From Rhizophagus irregularis (taxonomy: Eukaryota > Glomeromycota > Glomeromycetes > Glomerales > Glomeraceae): DNA of 64,000 bases. Of the stretch, positions 3,958-62,275 are shown one piece after another; positions within the stretch are counted from its first letter, which is position 1; each line of letters opens with the position of its first letter. The stretch lies in contig NC_089435.1 of the NCBI RefSeq assembly GCF_026210795.1, positions 3,100,001-3,164,000 of the forward strand, in the 5' to 3' direction. Made by a program: the position numbers and the translations under genes. The notes beneath the pieces were generated by a model. The model did not search any database. It was not told the DNA's origin and saw only the letters and a program-made list of their open reading frames with translations.

Positions 3958-4885
3958 TGTTACGCGATAAAATGCACATCCGATGTTCGACGTTATTCGA
4001 TGTTTATATGACGATCCGATATAATTTGTGTCCATGTCGATTTCTATCATTACATAACGATTTATGACCGCAGGTTGTGTACATTAAATTAGCCATATAG
4101 ATAATATTCTTTATTTTATCAATTTTATTATTATTTTTATTATTAGTTTTACATATGTAGCGATAGAATAATCATATATTACAATATTGTTTGTATTATT
4201 ATTATATTATATTATTTATTGTCTATAATTGTAATTTAAAAGATTATTGATGTATGTTGATGTATAAGATCTATAATAAGAGTTAATGAAGGATAATTTG
4301 ATTAATAATAATCAACTGATAGAATTTGTCATTCGTAACTTATCAAAAGGAGGGCTTATAATGGTTATTTTTATCACTATTATAGTAATTAGCCATATTA
4401 CCATGAAACATATTCCGTTATGTGTTTAGAACCTATCGGTAGATTAGATTTTGATATGATAATAGATGGTGTTGGAAAAAGAGATGGAGAATAGATATAA
4501 ATACCTTTCACCAACTCGTTGATAAAAGTAGAGAGGACCAAAGATTGTATTTTACCAGCTATAGTAGAAATCCTTTTCCCTATCACTTTTTATCATTTAT
4601 TATCACTTTGTTGTAAACCCTTAATCCTATCCCTTCATAACATTATTAATAAAAACCGTTATACATCGTATCGTTAATTATTGTTTCTGTGTGTTTTGAT
4701 ATATTATTCATTTATTACTCGACGTGTGTTATCATTATCGTATTTTGTAGGTGTTTATCTTGATGATTCTTAACGAACAATACCGGATAAGTAGTATTGA
4801 GTAAGAATCCCGTTGATAACCTGGTGTTTATATGACTTATTTTAACCAACCGTCGACCTTTACTTGCCGATATATTTCGGTAACA
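3958..4885 (+). repeat. 5' LTR
   Basis: This 928-bp direct repeat is the exact-length partner of 11176-12103 and is bounded by TGTTAC...GTAACA. By eye there are 14 differences to the 3' copy, all transitions, 12 of them at a CpG in one copy. A short open frame on the minus strand (4398-4586, repeated in the 3' copy) is only an LTR shadow. Confidence 0.95.
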
Positions 4886-4887
4886 AT

Positions 4888-11175: not shown

Positions 11176-12103
11176 TGTTACGCAATAAAATGCACATCCG
11201 ATGTTTGACGTTATTCGATGTTTATATGACGATCTGATATAATTTGTGTCCATGTCGATTTCTATCATTACATAACAATTTATGACCGCAGGTTGTGTAC
11301 ATTAAATTAGCCATATAGATAATATTCTTTATTTTATCAATTTTATTATTATTTTTATTATTAGTTTTACATATGTAGCGATAGAATAATCATATATTAC
11401 AATATTGTTTGTATTATTATTATATTATATTATTTATTGTCTATAATTGTAATTTAAAAGATTATTGATGTATGTTGATGTATAAGATCTATAATAAGAG
11501 TTAATGAAGGATAATTTGATTAATAATAATCAACTGATAGAATTTGTCATTCGTAACTTATCAAAAGGAGGGCTTATAATGGTTATTTTTATCACTATTA
11601 TAGTAATTAGCCATATTACCATGAAACATATTCCGTTATGTGTTTAGAACCTATCGGTAGATTAGATTTTGATATGATAATAGATGGTGTTGGAAAAAGA
11701 GATGGAGAATAGATATAAATACCTTTCACCAACTCGTTGATAAAAGTAGAGAGGACCAAAGATTGTATTTTACCAGCTATAGTAGAAATCCTTTTCCCTA
11801 TCACTTTTTATCATTTATTATCGCTTTGTTGTAAACCCTTAATCCTATCCCTTCATAACGTTATTAATAAAAACTGTTATACATCGTATTGTTAATTATT
11901 GTTTCTGTATGTTTTGATATATTATTCATTTATTACTCGACATGTGTTATCATTATCGTATTTTGTAGGTGTTTATCTTGACGATTCTTAATGAACAATA
12001 CCGGATAAGTAGTGTTGAGTAAGAATCCCGTTGATAACCTGGTGTTTATACGACTTATTTTAACCAACCGTCGACCTTTACTTGCCGATATATTTCGGTA
12101 ACA
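11176..12103 (+). repeat. 3' LTR
   Basis: Same length and ends as the 5' LTR, offset by 7218 bases, followed directly by the ATAT target duplication. Confidence 0.95.
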
Positions 12104-12916
12104 ATATCATTATATAAGATAAGTAAATCAATTGGCAATTATTTAAAGTAACAAGATTTCGCAAATTGTTTCAAGAACGGTAAATTTGCAATGTATCATG
12201 TTAATAAATTTAACATAAATTGCTTCTAGTAACTTATATTATTGACTAATTATATATCACGAATATATTAAGTGATTAGTACTTGGACACTAAATTCCAT
12301 TGCTATAATCAAAAGTTCGAGTAGTTTTAGGCCTTATAATTTAAATTTTTTTGCAATAGACGAATCTAAAAATGGAAAATAATGAATATGGCAGATATAA
12401 TTCATCTTTAAAAATATAATGTTTTTTAATTTTATCTTTGAATTTTAAAAGAAATGTAGAATGAAACTTTGCAAATTTTGGAATACATTTAATGCGTAGT
12501 TTAAACGAGTGATTTGTACTACAATCTCCAAATATTATAACATTATTTTATCATAGACGAAATCAAAAAAATCTTTTCACAATAAAAAATATTATCATAG
12601 ATACTGCATTTAATTTTACAAAATCAATGCAAAAGTATTTTCTACTACCTGTCGAAAATGTAATTTCTGTATTTCCTGCTACATCAATTTCGAATTAAAA
12701 AAATAAATGGTCATATTGTTTAGTCGTTTTACAATAATAAATATATTATAACGTGTCATGAATATACAAAGAAAGTGGAAAGAGTTCAACAATTATTAAT
12801 AATGAATAAATAAAAATTTCGTAATAAATATTCCATTCGTAATAACAAATTAAACATTTCTTCTGACAATAAAAATTCCGCCACTTAATACCTAGTGTAC
12901 AAACAATATAGATACG
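12104..12916. other. AT-rich intergenic DNA
   Basis: I see no gene or clear repeat between the right LTR and the end of the second BTB-TLDc copy. Confidence 0.45.
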
Positions 12917-41260: not shown

Positions 41261-43289
41261 ATGGAGCAACCAGTATATTATAAACATAAAATTGACTTTT
41301 TAATATCGGACAACACGCCTTCAATTCAGCCGACACAAAACTCACAAAACATATATAAGAAATGTAATGAATGTAATAGAAAAAGAAAAATTTTTGATAA
41401 AAGTCACGAGATTTGTCACGTGTGTTACAATATAAAGACTATACTTAAGCCTAAACAAAGTGGAAACAAAGTTGTTGACGATTTTATCAGATATACTCAA
41501 AGTAATTATGCTTTTATAGAAGATGGTAAAATGGAGCTTATTCCTTATGATCAATTCACCAATATAGAATTTATTGCTGAAGGAGGATTTAGTAAAATTT
41601 ATAAAGCTACTTGGGTTGATGGTCCTATCAATAATTGGAATAGGATTAAAGATGATTATTGGAATATTACTCGTAGAAAAAATTATACCGTTGTTCTCAA
41701 AAAGCTTAACAATTCTAAAAACATTACACCCAAGGAACTGAATGAGGTATGGCAAATTCTATATGTTTTAAATCTTCAATATGATGATGATAAATTAATT
41801 AGTTCAAGATATTTTATCAGATTTATTCAGATAAGAATGCACATAAAAGTTATATTAGTAATTATTTTGGAATTACTCAAGATCCTATTACCAAAGATAT
41901 TATAATTATTATGCCATATTATAATTCAGGTGATTTGATACATTATATAAGTAACGAATTTTATAATATTAATTGGGGAACAAAGTTGAATAAATTATGT
42001 TATATAGCAATTGGACTTAATAATATACACAAAGCAAAAATTGTTCACAGGGATTTACATAGTGGAAATATCTTCTTCGATGGACATACTGCGCATATAG
42101 GTGATCTTGGAATAAGTAAATCTGCAATTGAATGTACAGAAGATAGCAATGAGAATTATGGTATTATTCCTTATATGGCACCAGTTATTTTTCAAGGGCA
42201 AAAATATACAGAAGCTTCGGATATATATAGTTATGGGATGATTATGTGGGAATTTATGACAGGTAGAAGGCCTTTTTGGAATGAAAATCATGATATTGAA
42301 CTTATAATCAAAATATGTGATGGTTTACGACCATCAATTGTTACAAATGCACCTAAAGAATATATTGAATTAATGAAAGAATGCTGGCATTCTGATCCAG
42401 AACAAAGACCAAATGTTAATAATATATCTGGCAAAATTTGGGCAATGTTTATAAATGAAAATGATAGTACAAGTTTAACTAAAATTATAAAATCATCAGA
42501 TATTGGACCTGTAACAATAAATAATCTAGGCGCCGTTTATAAGAGTAGACCTTTAAGTCACATGATTCAATCTGCAATGTCATTAAGGAGTTCAAGAAGT
42601 CAATCTATCGGTAAATAATTTTATTATACTGAATACTGCAGAAAAATTCTGACTTTTTTTTTAATAATTATTTAGATCCATTAGATCCATTTTATTATTA
42701 TCAGAAAAATAGCAAGGCATCTTCTGCTGGTAATTACTCGGGTTTCGTTTAATGTGACGTTTGTATTAATATTAATAATATTATAATTTTAAAGATAAAA
42801 GAAAGGTTGATAAAGGTTCGGTTGAAGACAGTAATATCAACGGTATGATAAAGTTAGATTCCATGCATAATTATCTAATAAAAATTGATAACCCTATATA
42901 TTTTATTGTGTCTTCAATTATTTTAATTTTCATTTACGAATTTTTTTTAAAAATACAATTTAGATCAAAGTATTAAAAGGAGAAAATTATTTGAGAATGA
43001 AAATTATGGTAAGCAAATTCTATTTTTAGATAAATAACATTTTTATTATTATGTAAATTCTTAACTTTAAATAGATTTAAATTCTTCTTTAGATTATCTT
43101 ACGAAAGAAATCGAATTAGATATTAACGCAAATATGAGTCAACAACAACATAACGGTGAGTAAATACTCTGTTTTTCTTTTAAAAATATATAAATAATAG
43201 TTTTAATTTTTTTTTAATTTATAAAAATAGAATATGTTACCAAGGAATTTGATATAGATATTAATAATATTGATGAGTCAAATTTATAG
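41261..43289 (+). CDS. TKL-like protein kinase, seven exons
   Basis: Exons: 41261-41746, 41809-42610, 42676-42729, 42795-42842, 42964-43008, 43075-43155, 43231-43289; 524 residues. The first intron is phase 0; the other five are all phase 1 with clean GT and AG ends, and the frame stays open to TAG at 43287. An N-terminal CX2C...CX2C zinc-ribbon-like part (residues 35-55) precedes the kinase domain: glycine loop AEGGFSKIYKA (106-116), Lys in VVLKK (about 147), HRDLHSGN (242-249), DLG (261-263). The usual APE motif reads APV (286-288). The four small tail exons are acidic/Lys-rich and low in conservation. It probably phosphorylates Ser/Thr in the cytoplasm; target unknown. The APV change could weaken activity. 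Confidence 0.85.
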
Positions 43290-46836: not shown

Positions 46837-47296
46837 CAACCAAATACACCTATATGTTATATTGATTTGATGAAACAGTGTTGGGATTCGAATCCAAATA
46901 ATAGACCAGAAGCAGATAAAATTTTTGAATTAATTACATTATTTTGGATCTCATATATGTATGATGTGACCATCCTTTAAAGGATTCATGGAGTTTGAAA
47001 AGGAATATGAAATTGAAAAACAATTTAAAGAAGCAGAAGAATACAGAAGATCAAAACCTATTGCTTTTGGTGAAAGTACTCATCCACAAGCTGTTTATAA
47101 ATCTCGGTTACTTAATCCTTTTACAAAAAATATCCCAAAATTTGATAATAATACAGTGATTTTACAAAGTAAGTCTTATAATTTTTATTTTTAATAAATA
47201 TTATAATTGAATTTATCTAATCTAAAATCAATTCTTTATACAGATTATCATTCATGGATGATACAAATGAATAAAATGAATCAAATTTATTTTTAG
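46837..47296 (+). pseudogene. Fragment of a protein kinase gene, C-terminal part
   Basis: Opens with the end of a kinase C-lobe, CYIDLMKQCWDSNPNNRP (about 46853-46906), and then an early TAA at 46978. A second readable part (46988-47170) encodes FKEAEEYRRSKPI and YKSRLLNPFTKNIPKF, the usual tail of this kinase family, followed by an intron (GTAAGT...ATACAG, 47171-47251) and a short last exon ending at TAG 47294-47296. The N-lobe and catalytic loop are missing. It is therefore a 5'-truncated relic lying between two intact kinase genes. Confidence 0.8.
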
Positions 47297-52178: not shown

Positions 52179-53772
52179 GGGAATTGGTAAACTTCGCCTG
52201 GGTCGATCACGTGGCAGATTTAATACTTTTGATTGGCCAGATTTGCCACATGATCACTTTAATTGTAGGCTCGAGGTTCGTTTCCTTGGTTCTTTCGGTC
52301 TCAAGGTATTTTTCTTTTTTCTTTTATTTTTATTACTAACTTACATTCTTACACTTTGTTTCTTACTAACTCTATTTCATTATTTAGTCCTTCCGGTTCT
52401 GCAATTAAGGTACAGTTGTTTTTCACTTTACATTTCGTTTCTTATTTTTTATTTTTTTTTTTGTTTCTGGTTCATATTTCATTTTTAACTAATTTTATTT
52501 CATTTTTTTTTAGATCTTTTAGTTCTTTCGGTTCTACAATTAATAAAGGTATTTTTTTTTTATTTATTTTTTTTTTGTTTCTATCTTATATTTCGTTTCT
52601 TACTAACTTCACTTTATGGTTTATTTTTTACCTGGTTTCCTATCATTATCTTTTGCTACCCAACCTTCTATGAGATTTTGATCGGATACCCTAACCGATA
52701 TGGGAAATTTACCATTGTTTGAACTATTTTTACTACGTGAAAAAAACACTCGAATGCACGTGATCCGGTGATCTGTAGTAATTGACGTATTTTTTGTTGC
52801 CACCTTGCCACCTTATAAAATTTTATCATGATCTTTTTTTATTTTTTGTCTCTCATCATTTTTCACCTCCTATTACTTCTCATTATTCCATCCTTTTCGT
52901 CTCCCATTATTTCTATTACATCTTTTCATTTTCCATTATTTCTTTTTCTCTCCTGTTTACTTCCCATCATTTCTTTTTGTCTCTCATAACTCCTTTTCGT
53001 CTCCCATCACTCCTCTTCATTTTCCCATAACTTTTTTTGTCTCTCGTCACTTCTTTTCGTCTCCCATCACTCCTCTTCATCTTCCCATCACTCCTTTTCG
53101 TCTCCCATCACTCCTCTTCATCTTCTCATTATTCCTCTTCATCTTCCCATTGCTCCCTTTCATCTCCCATCACTCCTTTTCGTCTCCCATCATTCCTCTT
53201 CATCTACCCATCACTCCTTTTCGTCTCCCATCACTCTTCTTCATCTTCTCATTATTCCTCTTCATCTTCCCATCGCTCCTTTTCATCTCCCATCACTCCT
53301 TTTCGTCTCCCATCACTTTTCTTCATCTTCCTATAACTCCTTTTCATCTCCCATCATGTCCTATTTCTCCTTTTGTTTCCTATCAATTCACATTACTCTT
53401 TTTTACTCCCTTTCATCTTCTATTACTTTCCATTACTTCATTGTTATTTCATTTTTTTATTAGCATCTTTCTTCTTGATCATTGAAATTTACTTAATATC
53501 TTTCTTTTATTGTATCACTTCATTAAAAATAAATGGTGATTTTTTGCTTTAAAATCGAAAACGTGTGATTTAAATTTTAATATTTGCAAATAAATTTCAT
53601 TAGATAAGATTATTTTAAATAAATATGTTTGCAAAAATTTTTTTTTTAAAATATCTTTTGCGATAAAATTTTAAGTTTAGCCGATCAAAAATTAGCTAAG
53701 TTGATTCTTTATATATTGTACATCATGTGACATATTTGGAAAAAAAACCCCCGGCGATGTTTAACAATTCCC
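52179..53772. mobile_element. Nested TIR element, 1594 bp
   Basis: Ends are GGGAATTGGTAAACTTCGCC and, inverted on the right, GGGAATTGTTAAACATCGCC, so the inverted repeats are about 20 bp with two mismatches. AATT flanks both sides (52175-52178 and 53773-53776). The empty site is seen in the related copy at 23268-24160, which supports insertion as a unit. It carries no transposase; the inside is pyrimidine-rich with a minisatellite. Near the left end, GATCACGTGGCAGATTT and AGATTTGCCACATGATC form a second inverted pair. Confidence 0.75.
52900..53365. repeat. CTCCCATCACTCCTTTTCGT-type minisatellite
   Basis: Units of about 20-24 bases alternate between CTTTTCGTCTCCCATCACTC and CTCTTCATCTTCCCATCACTC forms over about 460 bases. 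It produces Ser/His/Phe/Leu-rich open frames in several frames, which are not genes. Confidence 0.85.
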
Positions 53773-54826: not shown

Positions 54827-57800
54827 ATGGACCAATGTATTGGTAAAGGTAAAGCATATAACATGAATAATAATATAAATTAGAATTATTCAAAATTATT
54901 AAAACAAACTTGCAATATAATAAAACTAGTTTTGTGTGATACCAAAGAACCCAAAGGTAAATATAATATACAAAACAAAATTGAAATATTAAGATTTTTA
55001 TTTATTAAAAAAACTTAATTATAAATAATCAAATATATTAAACCAAATTTGCAATATAATAAAACTAGTTTCCAGTAATATTGAAGAATTTGAAGAAAGT
55101 GGCACTGAAGAATTTGAAAGAAGTAGCATTGAGAAATTTGAAGAAAGTGGCACTGGAGAATCTAAAGGTATATCAAACAAGCTAAAATATTAAATTTTTA
55201 TTTATAAACAATTCAAATACTATCTAGGCTAACTATTTTATATAAAAATTATATTAAATATTTAGCTTGTAAGTTAATATAATGAATTACTCATTATTTT
55301 TATTGTATTCCATATAACTAAATAATTTATTTAATGATTAATAATACTGTAGTTGGTAAGTAATTGTTATCGGTCATGTTGTAGATGATAACTGATTTAC
55401 CACTAGGATTGCTATGTATATCATATGACCGAAGGCCGCATGATAGAGTAGCATCCTAGTGTAAATCAGTTATCATAAACATGACTGATAATAAAGTTAT
55501 TGGATATGTATGACGTAAAGCAACTGAGACCTTTTTCGCGTATCTTATTTATTATTTTATAATAATGTGATCAAAATTTTGTATATCACTAATTATAAAG
55601 TGACCAAAATTTGTGTATCACTATTATAAAGTGATCAATAACATACGTGAAAAATGTCCAGTGCTTACATAGAACATATACAATAAGTTATCAGTTATTT
55701 AAACCTTTAGTCCTTTACTACTTTATTTATTCTAACATAACATTCAAATAACTAAATTCTTTGTTTAAATAACTATTTAATTATTAATTATATTACAGAT
55801 AGTAAGTTACAATATATATATTATATTTATTTGTTTAATATTTTATATAATTCAACTAATTATATTCTTAATTTAAATAACTAGATTGTAAGTAATATAT
55901 ATAATATACAGTAAATACTTTTATATTATCTTTATATTTAACTAATTAATAATTAATAATACTACAGGGTGTAAGTTATATGATGTCTATATTGATATTA
56001 TTTATATAATTTAACAAATTTCTTTATTTAAAAATTATTAAATAATATAGGGTGTAAGTTATTTATTTAATTCTATTATTACTTATTGTTATAATATTTA
56101 CATATAATTTAGACTAACTAATTTCTTTATTTAAAAAATTATTAAATAATATAGTTCGTAAGTTTTTTATTATTACTTATTGTTATAATATTTACATATA
56201 ATTTAAACTAACTAATTTCTTTATTAGTTCGTAAGTTAATTTATTTAATTCTATTATTACTTATTGTTATAATATTTACATATAATTTATACTAACTAAT
56301 TTCTTTATTTAAAAAATTATTAAATAATATAGTTCGTAAGTTATTTATTTAATTCTATCATTACTTATTGTTATAATATTTACATATAATTTAGACTAAC
56401 TAATTTCTTAAAAAATTATTAAATAATATAGCTCGTAAGTTATTTATTTAATTTTATTATTACATATTGTTATAATATTTACATATGATTTAAAGTTTTC
56501 AACTAACTAATTTCTTTATTTAAAAAATTATTAAATAATATAGCTCGTAAGTTATTTATTTAATTCTATTATTACTTATTGATATAATATTTACATATAA
56601 TTTAAACTAACTAATTTCTTTATTTAAAAATTATTAAATAATATAGAGAGTAAGTTATTTATTTAATTCTATTATTCTTATTGTTATAATATTTACATAT
56701 AATTTAAACTATCTAATTTCTTTATTAGTTCGTAAGTTATTTATTTAATTCTATTATTACTTATTGTTATAATATTTACATAATTTAAACTAACTAATTT
56801 CTTTATTTAAAAAATTATTAAATAATGTAGGGCGTAAGTTATTTATTTAATTTTATTATTACTTATTGTTATAGTATTTACATATAATTTAAACTAACTA
56901 ATTTCTTTATTTAAAAAATTATTAAATAATATAGTTCGTAAGTTATTTATTTAATTCTATTATTACTTATTGTTATAATATTTACATATAATTTAAACTA
57001 ACTAATTTCTTTATTTAAAAAATTATTAAATAATATAGAGAGTAAGTTATTTATTTAATTCTATATTCTATTATTACTTATTGTTATAATATTTACATAT
57101 AATTTAAACTATCTAATTTCTTTATTTAAAAAATTATTAAATAATATAGTTCGTAAGTTAATTTATTTAATTCTATTATTACTTATTGTTATAATATTTA
57201 CATATAATTTAAACTAACTAATTTCTTTATTTAAAAAATTATTAAATAATATAGCTCGTAAGTTATTTATTTAATTTTATTATTACTTATTGATATAATA
57301 TTTACATATAATTTAAACTAACTAATTTCTTTATTTAAAAAATTATTAAATAATATAGTTCGTAAGTTATTTATTTAATTCTATTATTACTTATTGTTAT
57401 AATATTTACATATAATTTAAACTAACTAATTTCTTTATTTAAAAAATTATTAAATAATATAGAGAGTAAGTTATTTATTTAATTCTATATTCTATTATTA
57501 CTTATTGTTATAATATTTACATATAATTTAAACTATCTAATTTCTTTATTTAAAAAATTATTAAATAATATAGTTCGTAAGTTAATTTATTTAATTCTAT
57601 TATTACTTATTGTTATAATATTTACATATAATTTAAACTAACTAATTTCTTTATTTAAAAAATTATTAAATAATATAGCTCGTAAGTTATTTATTTAATT
57701 TTATTATTACTTATTGATATAATATTTACATATAATTTAAACTAACTAATTTCTTTATTTAAAAAATTATTAAATAATATAGTTCGTAAGTTATTTATTT

Positions 57801-60800
57801 AATTCTATTATTACATATTGTTATAATATTTACATATAATTTAAACTAACTAATCTCTTTATATTTAAAAACATTATTTAATAATATAGCTCGTAAGTTA
57901 TTTATTTAATACTATTATTACTTATTGTTATAATATTTACATATGATTTAAACTAACTAATTTCTTTATTTAAAAAATTATTAAATAATATAGTTCGTAA
58001 GTTATTTATTTAATTCTATTATTACTTATTGTTATAATATTTACATATAATTTAAACTAACTAATTTCTTTATCTAAAAAATTATTAAATGATATAGTTC
58101 GTAAGTTATTTATTTAATTCTATTATCACTTATTGTTATAATATTTACATATAATTTAAACTAACTAATTTCTTTATTTAAAAAATTATTTTGTAATTAT
58201 TTTAGTTGGTAAGTCATAAGTTATTTATTTAATTCTATTATTACTTATTGTTATAATATTTACGTATAGTTTAAACTAACTAATTTCTTTATTTAATAAA
58301 TTATTTAATAATATAGAGAGTAAGTTATTTATTTAATTTTATTATTACTTATTGTTATAATATTTACATATAATTTAAACTAACTAATTTCTTTATTTAA
58401 AAAATTATTTTGTAATTATTTTAGTTGGTAAGTCATAAGTTATTTATTTAATTCTATTATTACTTATTGTTATAATATTTACATATAATTTAAACTAACT
58501 AATTTCTTTATTTAAAAAATTATTAAATAATATAGAGAGTAAGTTATTTATTTAATTCTATTATTACTTATTGATATAATATTTACATATAATTTAAACT
58601 ATCTAATTTCTTTATTTAAAAAATTATTAAATAATATAGAGAGTAAGTTATTTATTTAATTCTATTATTCTTATTGTTATAATATTTACATATAATTTAA
58701 ACTAATTAATTTCTTTATTTAAAAATTATCAAATAATATAGAGAGTAAGTTATTTATTTAATTCTATTATTACTTATTGTTATAATAATTACATATAATT
58801 TAAACTAACTAATTTCTTTATTTAAAAAATTATTAAATAATATAGAGAGTAAGTTATTTATTTAATTCTATTATTACTTATTATTATATTATTTACATAT
58901 AATGTAACTAACTAATTTCTTTATTTAAAAATTATCAAATAATATAGAGTGTAAGTTATTTATTTAATTCTATTATTACTTATTGTTATAAACTAACTAA
59001 TTTCTTTATTTAAAAAATTATTAAATAATATAGGGCGTAAGTTATTTATTTAATTTTATTATTACTTATTGTTATAATATTTACATATAATTTAAACTAA
59101 CTAATTTTTTTATTTAAAAAATTATTAAATAATATAGGGCGTAAGTTATTTATTTAATTTTATTATTACTTATTGTTATAGTATTTACATATAATTTAAA
59201 TTAACTAATTTCTTTATTTAAAAAATTATCAAATAATAGAGTGTAAGTTATTTATTTAATTCTATTATTACTTATTGTTATAAACTAACTAATTTCTTTA
59301 TTTAAAAAATTATTAAATAATATAGGGCGTAAGTTATTTATTTAATTTTATTATTACTTATTGTTATAGTATTTACATATGATTTAAATTAACTAATTTC
59401 TTTATTTAAAAAATTATTAAATAATATAGAGAGTAAGTTATTTATTTAATTCTATTATTACTTATTGTTATAATATTTACATATAATTTAAACTAACTAA
59501 TTTCTTTATTTAAAAAATTATTTTGTAATTATTTTAGTTGGTAAGTCATAAGTTATTTATTTAATTCTATTATTACTTATTATTATATTATTTACATATA
59601 ATGTAACTAACTAATTTCTTTATTTAAAAAATTATTTATGATCTAGCTTGTAAGTGTCTCTATTGTTATATATTTTATATAATATTTATTGGTTAACTGA
59701 ATTCTTTTATTTGAAAAATATCTGTTACTTTAGTCGGTAAGTTGTAAGTCATAGGTTATTATATGTATTTATCTAAAAATTAAGACTTATATTTCATTAA
59801 ATCCCTATTTAAATTTTAGAGTAAGTAATAATTTATTTTGTATAAATTATAATATAATCTACAATATAATTTTAACTATTTAAATTTATAGATTTGGGAA
59901 AAGTGGAAATACAATTATAGATGATTTTGTTCTTAAAAAACGATTAAAATGGATTCCTTATAACAAATTTAAAAATGTTGAATATCTTAATGAAGGAGGA
60001 TTTGGTACTATATACAAAGCTAATTGGTCAAATGGAGTTGGAGAAGTAATACTTAAATGTCACAAGAATTTAAATGAAAATTTAAATGAATTTTTGAAAG
60101 AAGTATGATAGTATATTATTTTCTATTTTTAATTTAAATTAAAATTTATTTATAATAATAAATTATTATTATTATTTTATAGTGGGAATATCATACAAGT
60201 GTTTTAAGTTCAATCAATATTATAGATATTTATGGATTCACAAAAGATCCAAATACATCGAAATATATGGTAGTAATGGATTATGCAAATAAAGGTAATT
60301 TAAGAGAAAATTTAACAAGTATAGTCAAAAATAATTGGAATCAAAAATTATATATGTTGTACGAAATTATTTCTGGACTTAGTAAGATACATGAAAAAAA
60401 TCTTATTCATTGTGATTTTCATGATGGTAATATTTTAAATCATAGTAATAAGGATAAGGATAAAATTTATATTAGTGATTTAGGATTATGCCAACCTATA
60501 AAATCATTTTTGGAAAAATATGATATTTATGGTGTTATATCATTTATGGCTCCTGAAGTTTTAAGAGGCAAATCTTATACTCCAGCTAGTGATATATATA
60601 GTTTTTCTATGATTATGTGGGAACTTACATCTGGGGTACCACCATTTAATAATAGAGCACATGATATTCAACTTAGTTTGAGTATTTGTAAAGGTGAACG
60701 TCCTGAAATTATTGAAAATACTCCACAATGTTATGTAGATTTAATGAAAGAATGTTGGAATGAAGATTCATCAAAAAGACCATCTTCTAAAGAAGTATTA

Positions 60801-61378
60801 GAAATTATTGAAAAATGGATTTTCCGTCCTGATGATGATGAAATTAATGAAGAATTAGAAAGCAACATTATGGAATTTATAAATGCACCAATTGGGCATA
60901 ACAATCTTGCTACTAAATCTCATCCTAAAGCATGTTTTACAAGTCGCTTACTTGATTTTACTAGTAAAAAATTGAATGAAATTCTTGAAAATGAAAATAC
61001 ACAAGCATCTCATGCAAGTCATTCAGATTTGAATGATTGTGTAATTAGAGGAGATTTGATGTCATTAGGTATATACTATAATATATAAAAAATTAATCTT
61101 GCAAATTATTTATATGAAATTAATTAATTTATTTAATTATTCAGATGAGAATACTAGTAAAAAGTTGAATGAAATTCCTGAAAGTGAAAATTCACAAGCT
61201 AGTGTAAAAGCAAATGAAATGCTAGTAAGTGAAGATTTGAATGATTATATAATTAAGGGTCTGGGGTCATTAGGTATGTACTATGATATATAAAAGAATT
61301 AATCTTGTAAATTATTTATGTGAAATTAATTTTATTTAATATTTAATTTATTTAGATATTAAAGCAAATGAAAATTAA
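54827..61378 (+). CDS. TKL-like protein kinase with a putative microexon array
   Basis: Proposed exons: 54827-54848, 54930-54956, 55069-55167, about 42 three-base exons between 55266 and 59736, one base at 59820, then 59892-60102, 60183-61068, 61145-61273 and 61356-61378. All joined, the frame is open for 507 residues. The first three exons are phase 1 and exon 3 encodes three Glu-rich repeats (EEFEESGT type). The kinase domain is clear: NEGGFGTIYKANW glycine loop, VILK lysine, IHCDFHDGN catalytic loop (Cys in place of Arg), SDLG and MAPEVL. The two last tail exons are phase 1; exon 61145-61273 repeats the end of the exon before it (TSKKLNEI, DLND). Kinase exons are firm; the microexon reading and the start are inferences. 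Confidence 0.65.
55256..59830 (+). repeat. Tandem array of intron-like units separated by three bases
   Basis: About 43 units, mostly 104 bp: GTAAGT donor, TTATTTATTTAATTCTATTA body, CTAACTAAT branch-like motif and ATATAG acceptor, then three bases before the next GTAAG. The three bases are TTC, CTC, AGA, GGC, GGT, AGT, TTG, CTT, ATA, ATT or TCG. The first units (55266, 55353, 55799, 55885, 55968) and the last (59647, 59734) have quite different bodies but keep AG-NNN-GTAAG. The final unit has one base (59820). It lies wholly between exon 3 and the kinase exon of the gene at 54827. Two 424-bp blocks of four units (56935-57358 and 57359-57782) look identical. Confidence 0.9.
55368..55490. mobile_element. 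Hairpin MITE inside the intron array
   Basis: TATCGGTCATGTT... at the left is inverted at the right (AACATGACTGATA), and the inner arms GATAACTGATTTAC...ACTAGGAT and ATCCTAGT...GTAAATCAGTTATC also pair, giving about 55-bp arms with small gaps. It lies between the second and third intron-like units, so that intron is longer than its neighbours. Confidence 0.7.
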
Positions 61379-61668: not shown

Positions 61669-61871
61669 TTTTCCAATTATGAAATATAAATTATCAAAAT
61701 AATAATATAAAACCATTTCTAATGATAATGTAAAATTTTTTATACTTATTCTAATAGCTTGATTGTACTTATTTATATTTGTTGACTTTTATTTTTAATA
61801 TTATTTAAATATTCATTTGAATTAGCACTCATACATTTATAAGCTAATTTCTTATAAAATTCGGGAGTTCC

Positions 61872-62275
61872 TTACCCAAATTCTGGCTTAATCCCATTAC
61901 ATATGGCTAATGCTAAACTTAAAGGTGATTTTCCAGATGATAATTCAGCCACAGCAGATAATTTATATGGTTCACCGTTTAAGACTTCTGGTGCAATATA
62001 TAGCAATACTCCATACACTTTATCATCTAAGTTTTGTTCATTTGCTGGTCCATATAATCCAAAGTCTTCTGAAATGAGAGATAAAGCAGTAGTATGAATT
62101 TGTAGGATATTCCACTATGAAATCCCTACGGAAATATCCTGATAATATAACATATTCAAGAAATTATTTGAAGAATACTTCTCAAACCCTCAGTAAATTG
62201 TTTAGTCATCATAAATTCTTTAGCTTCTTAGTTACCATAAAGCTTTAATCCTCCAAACTTAGATACTTCCCAATG
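61872..62275 (-). pseudogene. Antisense protein-kinase relic
   Basis: On the minus strand kinase pieces appear in order: WEVSKFGGLKLYG (from about 62275), FHSG-like sequence near 62120, then an open stretch 62100-61872 with EDFGLYGPANEQ, IAPEVLNGEPY, AELSSGKSPLSLALAICNG and IKPEF before TAA. Stops interrupt the first half, and the segment between APE and AELSSGK is shorter than normal. It is a decayed kinase copy lying tail to tail with the gene at 54827-61378; it is not from that gene itself, because the motifs differ (IAPEVLNGEPY against MAPEVLRGKSY). Confidence 0.75.

Follow-up and report, generated by a model that had tools for sequence, protein, structure and literature searches.

We analysed a 64,000-nucleotide stretch of the Rhizophagus irregularis genome (assembly GCF_026210795.1, contig NC_089435.1, positions 3,100,001 to 3,164,000 of the forward strand), hereafter the window, and in it a protein kinase gene on the forward strand whose third exon is separated from its kinase exons by a long array of intron-like units. 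The array occupies 55264..59741 on the plus strand. Each unit has the form AG-NNN-GTAAG, the first AG lying at 55264 and the last at 59732, and the phase-1 reading of the successive three-base elements is AFDNWWFLLPPQIRLQIPLQIPLPLLLEIEKKKKWRQWQIAF. The original prediction had described about 42 units with exactly three bases between acceptor and donor, and exactly three bases were found in 42 of 42. An acceptor and a donor flank every one of these elements, as is expected of a chain of spliceosomal microexons, and the donor is GTAAGT in all of them. Beyond 55000-60000, AGNNNGTAAG occurs two more times on the array strand and four times on the entire opposite strand of the 64-kb window. GTAAG alone is present 44 times in the array region, and the two copies outside the regular units lie at 59744, within the last donor region, and at 59821, where the sequence is AG-A-GTAAG. 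The rule of three bases, predicted to run up to the kinase exon, thus holds for 42 units and fails at the final spacing: after unit 42 the next AG-to-GTAAG spacing is one nucleotide (59820).

Units follow one another at 73-112 bp, with a single exception of 446 bp that contains an insertion, and apart from this spacing no gap in the window array suggests a lost unit. The insertion (55366..55700, without assigned strand, boundaries approximate and set by eye) lies within the intron after microexon 2 and carries at its start an inverted repeat resembling that of a miniature inverted-repeat transposable element (MITE). The intron that holds it is enlarged to ~440 bp and its splice sites are intact. 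Intron insertions with intact adjacent splice units were also seen, by eye, in the paralogous arrays L051 (gaps ~3074 and ~5605 in the reverse complement), L061 and L062. A CTAAC-like branch motif had been predicted about 35-40 bases before each AG; the motif is CTAAC in 30 of the 42 window units, CTAAT in nine, TTAAC in two and absent from one, and the distance from the branch A to the AG is most frequently 37 nt (20 of 41 units). The units at the edges have little sequence in common with the core and still keep the three-nucleotide rule, as had also been predicted. Tandem Repeats Finder (TRF) reported a period of 104 and its multiples in the array, together with a higher-order period of 424 bp.

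Three plus-strand exons precede the array. A conceptual exon 1 (54827..54848; ATG GAC CAA TGT ATT GGT AAA G, encoding MDQCIGK) would end in phase 1, and a conceptual exon 2 of 27 nt (54930..54956) would be of phase 1-1. Exon 3 (55069..55167) encodes EEFEESGT repeats and ends in phase 1 at AAAG|GTATAT. A stretch similar to exon 3 is present in the public proteins P0012, P0018 and P0002, and in several paralogs a sequence similar to exon 1 (MDQ/MDK) adjoins the array directly. On the other side of the array, also on the plus strand, a putative one-nucleotide exon A (TTTTAG|A|GTAAGT, 59820..59820) would set the frame of the kinase, the first exon of which (59892..60102) reads A TTT GGG AAA AGT GGA AAT.., that is FGKSGNTIIDDF. 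The main kinase exon (60183..61068) contains HCDFH, DLG and DIYSF in its translation and is 98.9% identical over 279 residues to the public protein P0001 (Rhizophagus irregularis DAOM 181602=DAOM 197198). Two further plus-strand exons are conceptual, namely a 3' exon that is a partial duplicate of the end of the preceding exon (61145..61273) and a last exon with the stop codon (61356..61378). The 3' end of the gene (60880-61378) has a duplicated stretch in small phase-1 exons as well (TSKKLNEI.. repeated).

When these parts are joined, exons 1-3 end in phase 1, the 42 microexons preserve this phase and the single A shifts it, which gives a conceptual product of 507 residues. Pfam identified this product as a kinase (PF07714, E 7.7e-42, residues 121-369; PF00069, E 3e-38); four kinase-type families were the only ones found by Pfam in the window protein, which showed neither a NACHT nor an ankyrin domain. 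Conceptual joining of exon 3 straight to the kinase exon results in a frameshift and a stop, and omission of the one-base exon alone likewise leaves the kinase out of frame with a stop. Omission of all 42 microexons with the single A retained stays in frame, as it must for symmetrical exons. The single base between acceptor and donor is thus needed by the frame of the predicted gene. In the window, an alternative donor at 59744 (exon TCGGTAAGTT, 10 nt) also closes the frame. Among the 20 arrays described below, a second GTAAG at the position equivalent to 59744 is present in the window only, with GTAAA in 17 and neither in two; a unit with a spacing of 10 was also seen in L010. We prefer the putative one-nucleotide exon to the 10-nt alternative, because its GTAAG stands in 20 of 20 arrays.

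The arrangement recurs through the genome. A search of 146,748,485 bases in 32 contigs with the unit gave at least 429 matches, and among the matches listed we read 23 clusters, each on the same strand as a kinase match and just 5' of it. At the 20 best kinase loci, the window locus included, 8-12 units lie within ~1.5 kb 5' of the main kinase exon in 19 cases, and a unit in which one base separates AG from GTAAG is likewise present at 19. Only L027 (C23:1210576-1214424), among these 20, showed no array over the 1.5 kb examined; its kinase match holds an internal TGA and an internal TAA and comes without a first-exon match, and it may be a broken copy.

Twenty arrays were compared: the one in the window, 18 in longer stretches and one on C17 assembled from overlapping pieces. 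They contain 9 to 49 regular three-nucleotide units each, which on sequence evidence amounts to tens of codon-sized microexons across an expanded family; for the array on C23 (L068) the 5' end was not found and the array may be cut. TTTAGAGTAAG was found in all 20. The ends of the arrays are conserved. The penultimate microexon is CTT in 18 of 20, followed by TTG in 14, TCG in three, TCA in two and TTA in one, and the closing microexons together with the one-nucleotide exon spell F-E/K-F at the kinase start in 19. Ten arrays start with ATT GGT, and in nine this pair is preceded by one to three other triplets. What lies between the two ends varies from array to array. As judged from these loci, the putative device is a property of the gene family and not unique to the window locus.

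Spacing was counted in the window and 28 other arrays or pieces (26 loci), which were also the material of the stop test below. An AG stands 3 nt upstream of 749 of the 759 GTAAG, 6 nt upstream of three and 4 nt upstream of three (one of them ambiguous), with neither in four. Loss of the spacing in paralogs is therefore an occasional but rare event. GC donors were found in 10 of 770 units, all with a 3-nt spacing as a consequence of how they were sought. In L052 the microexon TTG is followed by a GC donor (TTG|GCAAG) in seven copies within a single array, with one TTA copy in addition, so that GC-AG introns have been amplified there along with the unit. In the array L069 (C15) the intron bodies differ somewhat and triplets like TGC and AGC occur, under the same three-nucleotide rule.

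In phase 1 a codon consists of the third base of one microexon and the first two bases of the next, and each such codon bridges an intron of ~100 bp. We searched for stop codons among them in 786 microexons, which form 724 neighbouring pairs no more than 125 bp apart in 29 arrays or pieces, one single-unit piece having been dropped. Phase-1 stops were formed by two of the 724 pairs in forward order, against 22.3 ± 3.6 in within-array shuffles; none of 20,000 shuffles reached two or fewer (the minimum was 8), and reversal of the order of the pairs yielded 22. In a run without L069 the count was two of 710 against 21.8 expected, and phase-2 stops in the same run numbered 90 against 78.9 expected, hence showed no depletion. 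AG, AA or GA came after a T in two of 212 pairs and after the other bases in 90 of 498 (Fisher p 7e-13, with pairs that are not independent). Avoidance of AG as such was rejected as the reason for the missing T|AG, the counts being 32 for A|AG, 15 for C|AG and 29 for G|AG against two. The asymmetry persists when each distinct four-unit context is counted once (two stops forward, 18 reverse, n=537) and when each distinct pair is counted once (one forward, 14 reverse, n=254). Stops are thus depleted in phase 1 only and in forward order only, as expected of joined exons that are translated in one phase. The signal appears to reflect selection; nothing else that we can think of would affect ordered neighbours in just one phase.

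The frames agree with this. A frame open from the upstream exon through the regular microexons and the one-nucleotide exon into the kinase (FGKSGN or a near variant) was obtained for 17 of 20 arrays, and the upstream exon ends in phase 1 wherever it was recognised by its protein (18 of 20). The three-base units are very probably exons, spliced together one after the other and translated in phase 1. We are confident that the array as a whole is best explained as an ordered row of spliceosomal exons of one codon each, which would diversify the N-terminus of the kinase. Of the two possibilities raised in the original prediction, consecutive three-nucleotide microexons are strongly supported by the forward-only stop avoidance in phase 1, by the open frames and by the hypervariable triplets described below, and the same three observations disfavour recursive splice points in their classical form, in which the mRNA retains no bases.

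Classical recursive splice sites leave zero bases behind. Under a recursive scheme one large intron would be removed stepwise and the three bases would be unimportant. The array resembles such a system in its successive AG/GT sites within one long interval, in its regular AG-NNN-GTAAG spacing and in the regeneration of a donor at every step. It differs in that AG is never directly followed by GT, three bases being present in 42 of 42 units, and each step would leave these bases in the mRNA, where they appear to be translated. Moreover, only the translation of joined neighbours would lead to T|AG, T|AA and T|GA being avoided across introns, and a direct join of exon 3 to the kinase exon loses the frame and runs into a stop. 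We regard recursive splicing as highly improbable.

An ordinary intronic minisatellite with chance splice-like motifs, spread by duplication of the kinases, would account for units that are in tandem, locally amplified and near-identical. Such a repeat would be free of coding constraint on order and content, which is not what was found, as neighbours obey the codon rule across introns and frames are open into the kinase. In addition, the diverged edge units retain their spacing, and the variability is concentrated in the three bases. In 35 aligned core units the frequencies of minor letters at the three bases are 0.59, 0.42 and 0.42, and those in the other columns 0-0.18 with one of 0.26; misalignment accounts for part of the scatter in the donor columns, as all donors are GTAAGT. 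The average variability of the three bases exceeds that of the remaining columns of this alignment by a factor of more than 10. An origin as a minisatellite therefore seems to us scarcely credible.

The same concentration was observed between genes. Sixty-three units from 13 genes share identical flanks of 38+38 nt (upstream of the AG and from GTAAG on) and contain 14 different triplets. In the commonest tail type (284 units) the diversity at the three bases is 0.68, 0.42 and 0.64; over 20 positions to the left and 20 to the right it is 0-0.29, and of these the eight nearest upstream positions are fixed by the definition of the type. The triplets TTG, ATG and ATT/ATC are each tied to a tail type of their own, and because of this the units seem to act like cassettes that carry a codon together with its flanks. 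Inheritance of codon order between paralogs was considered and, the conserved ends aside, not detected. None of 229 between-gene pairs exceeded z>4 (highest 2.6, 30 shuffles per pair), and among the 231 pairs compared in total the sole z>4 was between two pieces assigned to one gene; this lack of a shared order persists despite an identity of the kinases to the window gene of up to 89%. R, Y, F, D, W and N are abundant in the encoded segment. Y+F+W make up 26% of it, to which the triplet vocabulary contributes, against 12% in three public kinase pieces. Comparison across the family thus speaks for ordered inclusion of the units, for their phase and frame, for hypervariability and for family-wide recurrence.

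Several observations weigh against an ordered phase-1 row. Two junctions form a phase-1 stop, in both cases ATT>AGA, one in L053 and one in L068; in L068 an ATT/ATC unit precedes AGA at four places, with ATC three times and ATT once, which is the one violation. Three of the 20 arrays are not open, L053 and L068 through one TAG each and L062 through a stop in the kinase exon; the pattern used did not pick up the kinase start of L068, and the assignment of the upstream exon is in doubt for L060 and L068. Some units of paralogs are degenerate: a donor or an acceptor has been lost or, clearly so in two cases in L052, the spacing is 4 nt. These were omitted from the conceptual joins, and the frame of L052 is open only when they are left out. 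Owing to duplication, neither the pairs within an array nor those from different arrays are independent. A database search with the phase-1 N-terminus found no annotated protein, and only one candidate shared words with it. P0070, considered as a public model in phase 1, was rejected, as its residues are not spelled by the first 15 microexons of L069 (compared by hand). Finally, phase 0 is the reading given to the array in those public models that include it, such as P0002.

In that public reading the microexons are joined in order and translated in phase 0, and a 5-nt exon AGTAA leads into the kinase exon (…LSKFGKS). P0002 fits the phase-0 reading of the L061 array (GILELVIE..GIGLLLELGILGIEL) apart from two short differences, and P0007, P0016, P0075, P0113 and P0066 end in LSKFGKS, LSKSGKS or SSKFGKS, the use of AGTAA being our reading of those letters. 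Ordered depletion of stops in phase 1 and not in phase 2 is unexpected under phase 0. The upstream exon, in the 18 arrays where it was recognised, ends in phase 1, which also counts against this reading. Phase 0 contains three TGA triplets across the arrays, and the 5-nt exon requires the donor GTAATA where the one-nucleotide exon has GTAAGT. We consider translation in phase 0 very unlikely, and phase 2 was likewise rejected on the stop counts. P0002 nevertheless suggests that at least one public model already chains the exons of an array, with a different end, and from the similar-looking R. diaphanus proteins P0016 and P0066 the device is probably present in that species also. Many of the 120 public proteins listed begin at or within the kinase exon. 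The N-termini of a large kinase family are probably wrong, because public models disagree on the phase or start inside the kinase.

Ordered joining in phase 1 could be accompanied by alternative splicing, in which subsets of microexons are skipped, in a regulated or a random manner, to give many isoforms per gene. Any subset of microexons preserves the frame, and reviews, as far as excerpts of them go, report alternative splicing of codon-sized microexons in truffle (Tuber melanosporum nank). When units two apart are paired, stops are somewhat less frequent in forward order (12) than in reverse (22), as expected with single skips (shuffles 20.6 ± 3.6, P 0.0065 uncorrected). At lags of 3, 4 and 5 no depletion was found (26, 14 and 14 against 19.0, 17.3 and 15.9 expected), so that long skips are not under the same constraint. 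Alternative splicing is a serious possibility, to which we give slightly less than an even chance, and it would add to the ordered phase-1 row and not replace it.

We propose that each ~100-nt intron would be removed as a unit, by intron definition, and that the three-base exons would be joined in order. Recognition of the intron, with its strong donor and its branch motif, as a unit is probable because an exon of three bases offers no room for recognition across the exon. The one-base exon would then restore the frame of the kinase, and the product would be a kinase with an N-terminal segment of roughly 9 to 49 residues that differs in each paralog. The unit of half an intron, a codon and half an intron is of phase 1-1 and contributes three bases, and its gain, loss or exchange would always be in frame. 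Near-identical introns would invite unequal crossing-over and conversion, by which single residues could be added, deleted or swapped, and selection for diversity would then act on individual residues. The arrangement may persist through diversification of a binding or regulatory segment. The abundance of Y, F, W, R, D and N in the segment would be in keeping with a binding surface, for instance one used in self/nonself or partner recognition; a binding role is speculation, helped by analogy with the truffle case. The order of splicing, the degree of skipping, diversification as the function under selection and whatever the segment binds are matters of inference.

The original prediction knew of no array of this type, a remark that needs some correction. 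According to excerpts of three papers (PMC4986451, PMC3689799, PMC10197012, citing Iotti et al. 2012, Fungal Biol 116:261), genes of the nank (NACHT-ANK) family in Tuber melanosporum have microexons of codon size by the tens, and the family is linked there to nonself recognition. As far as these excerpts go, the principle of rows of codon-sized exons in an expanded fungal family is already known, and both systems have tens of such microexons that are said to diversify the protein. The truffle genes encode ascomycete receptors of the NLR type with reported alternative splicing, whereas here glomeromycete kinases carry the segment 5' of the kinase domain; the comparison is one of descriptions, and the NACHT-ANK architecture was not found by Pfam in the window protein. 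The arrays in R. irregularis are a new and probably independent variant relative to the truffle case. In the listed part of the literature on microexons with Rhizophagus or arbuscular mycorrhiza and on arrays of microexons or single-codon exons, from which subscription papers were mostly outside coverage, the kinase family was not found described.

Exons in the MEG genes of Schistosoma are several codons long. An excerpt of PMC4350168 describes much of the coding region of these genes as lying in very small symmetrical exons, the skipping of which keeps the frame. The exons here are symmetrical too, but they are exactly 3 nt long, stand tens in a row between near-identical introns and make up 42 of 508 codons (stop included), not most of the coding region. 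One-nucleotide exons are reported, in the parts of the sources seen, from Arabidopsis APC11 and Fusarium CYP621A (PMC12940212, PMC4674806); as in the window gene, a 1-nt exon sets the frame there, fungi included, whereas those are single exons in one gene and the present one closes a microexon array family-wide. Drosophila homothorax has, according to an excerpt of PMC7392893, one alternatively spliced 3-bp exon and not an array.

New, as far as can be told, are the occurrence in a glomeromycete kinase family, the RNA-free evidence of order and phase from stop avoidance, and the closure of the array by a 1-nt exon. Cassettes in which near-identical introns surround hypervariable triplets also belong here, as does the absence of a shared order between paralogs. 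With exons of a single codon, the recognition of introns and exons is put to an extreme test. If the proposal is true, the spliceosome would routinely assemble protein one codon at a time, in rows of up to 49 and in at least 19 genes of one genome, and the array family would be a large natural data set on single-codon splicing. The frame of the repeat resides in the introns and the variation in the single-codon exons. Taken together, glomeromycete kinases and truffle receptors make such arrays look like a general fungal route to hypervariable proteins; that diversification by codon cassettes was reached more than once in fungi, with intron recombination shuffling single residues of a recognition-like segment, is in our judgement an even bet. 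The stop-avoidance test needs no RNA and is applicable to other genomes, and the affected kinase family belongs to a major plant symbiont.

The window contains further kinase-like matches, at 61821-62066 on the minus strand and at 41456-42555 and 46843-47116; the first of these is fragment-like and lies in antisense just behind the array gene. A tandem repeat of ~41 bp was reported by TRF 5' of the array gene (52960-53356). Two 930-bp stretches, 3958-4887 and 11176-12105, are 98.5% identical and lie 7.2 kb apart.

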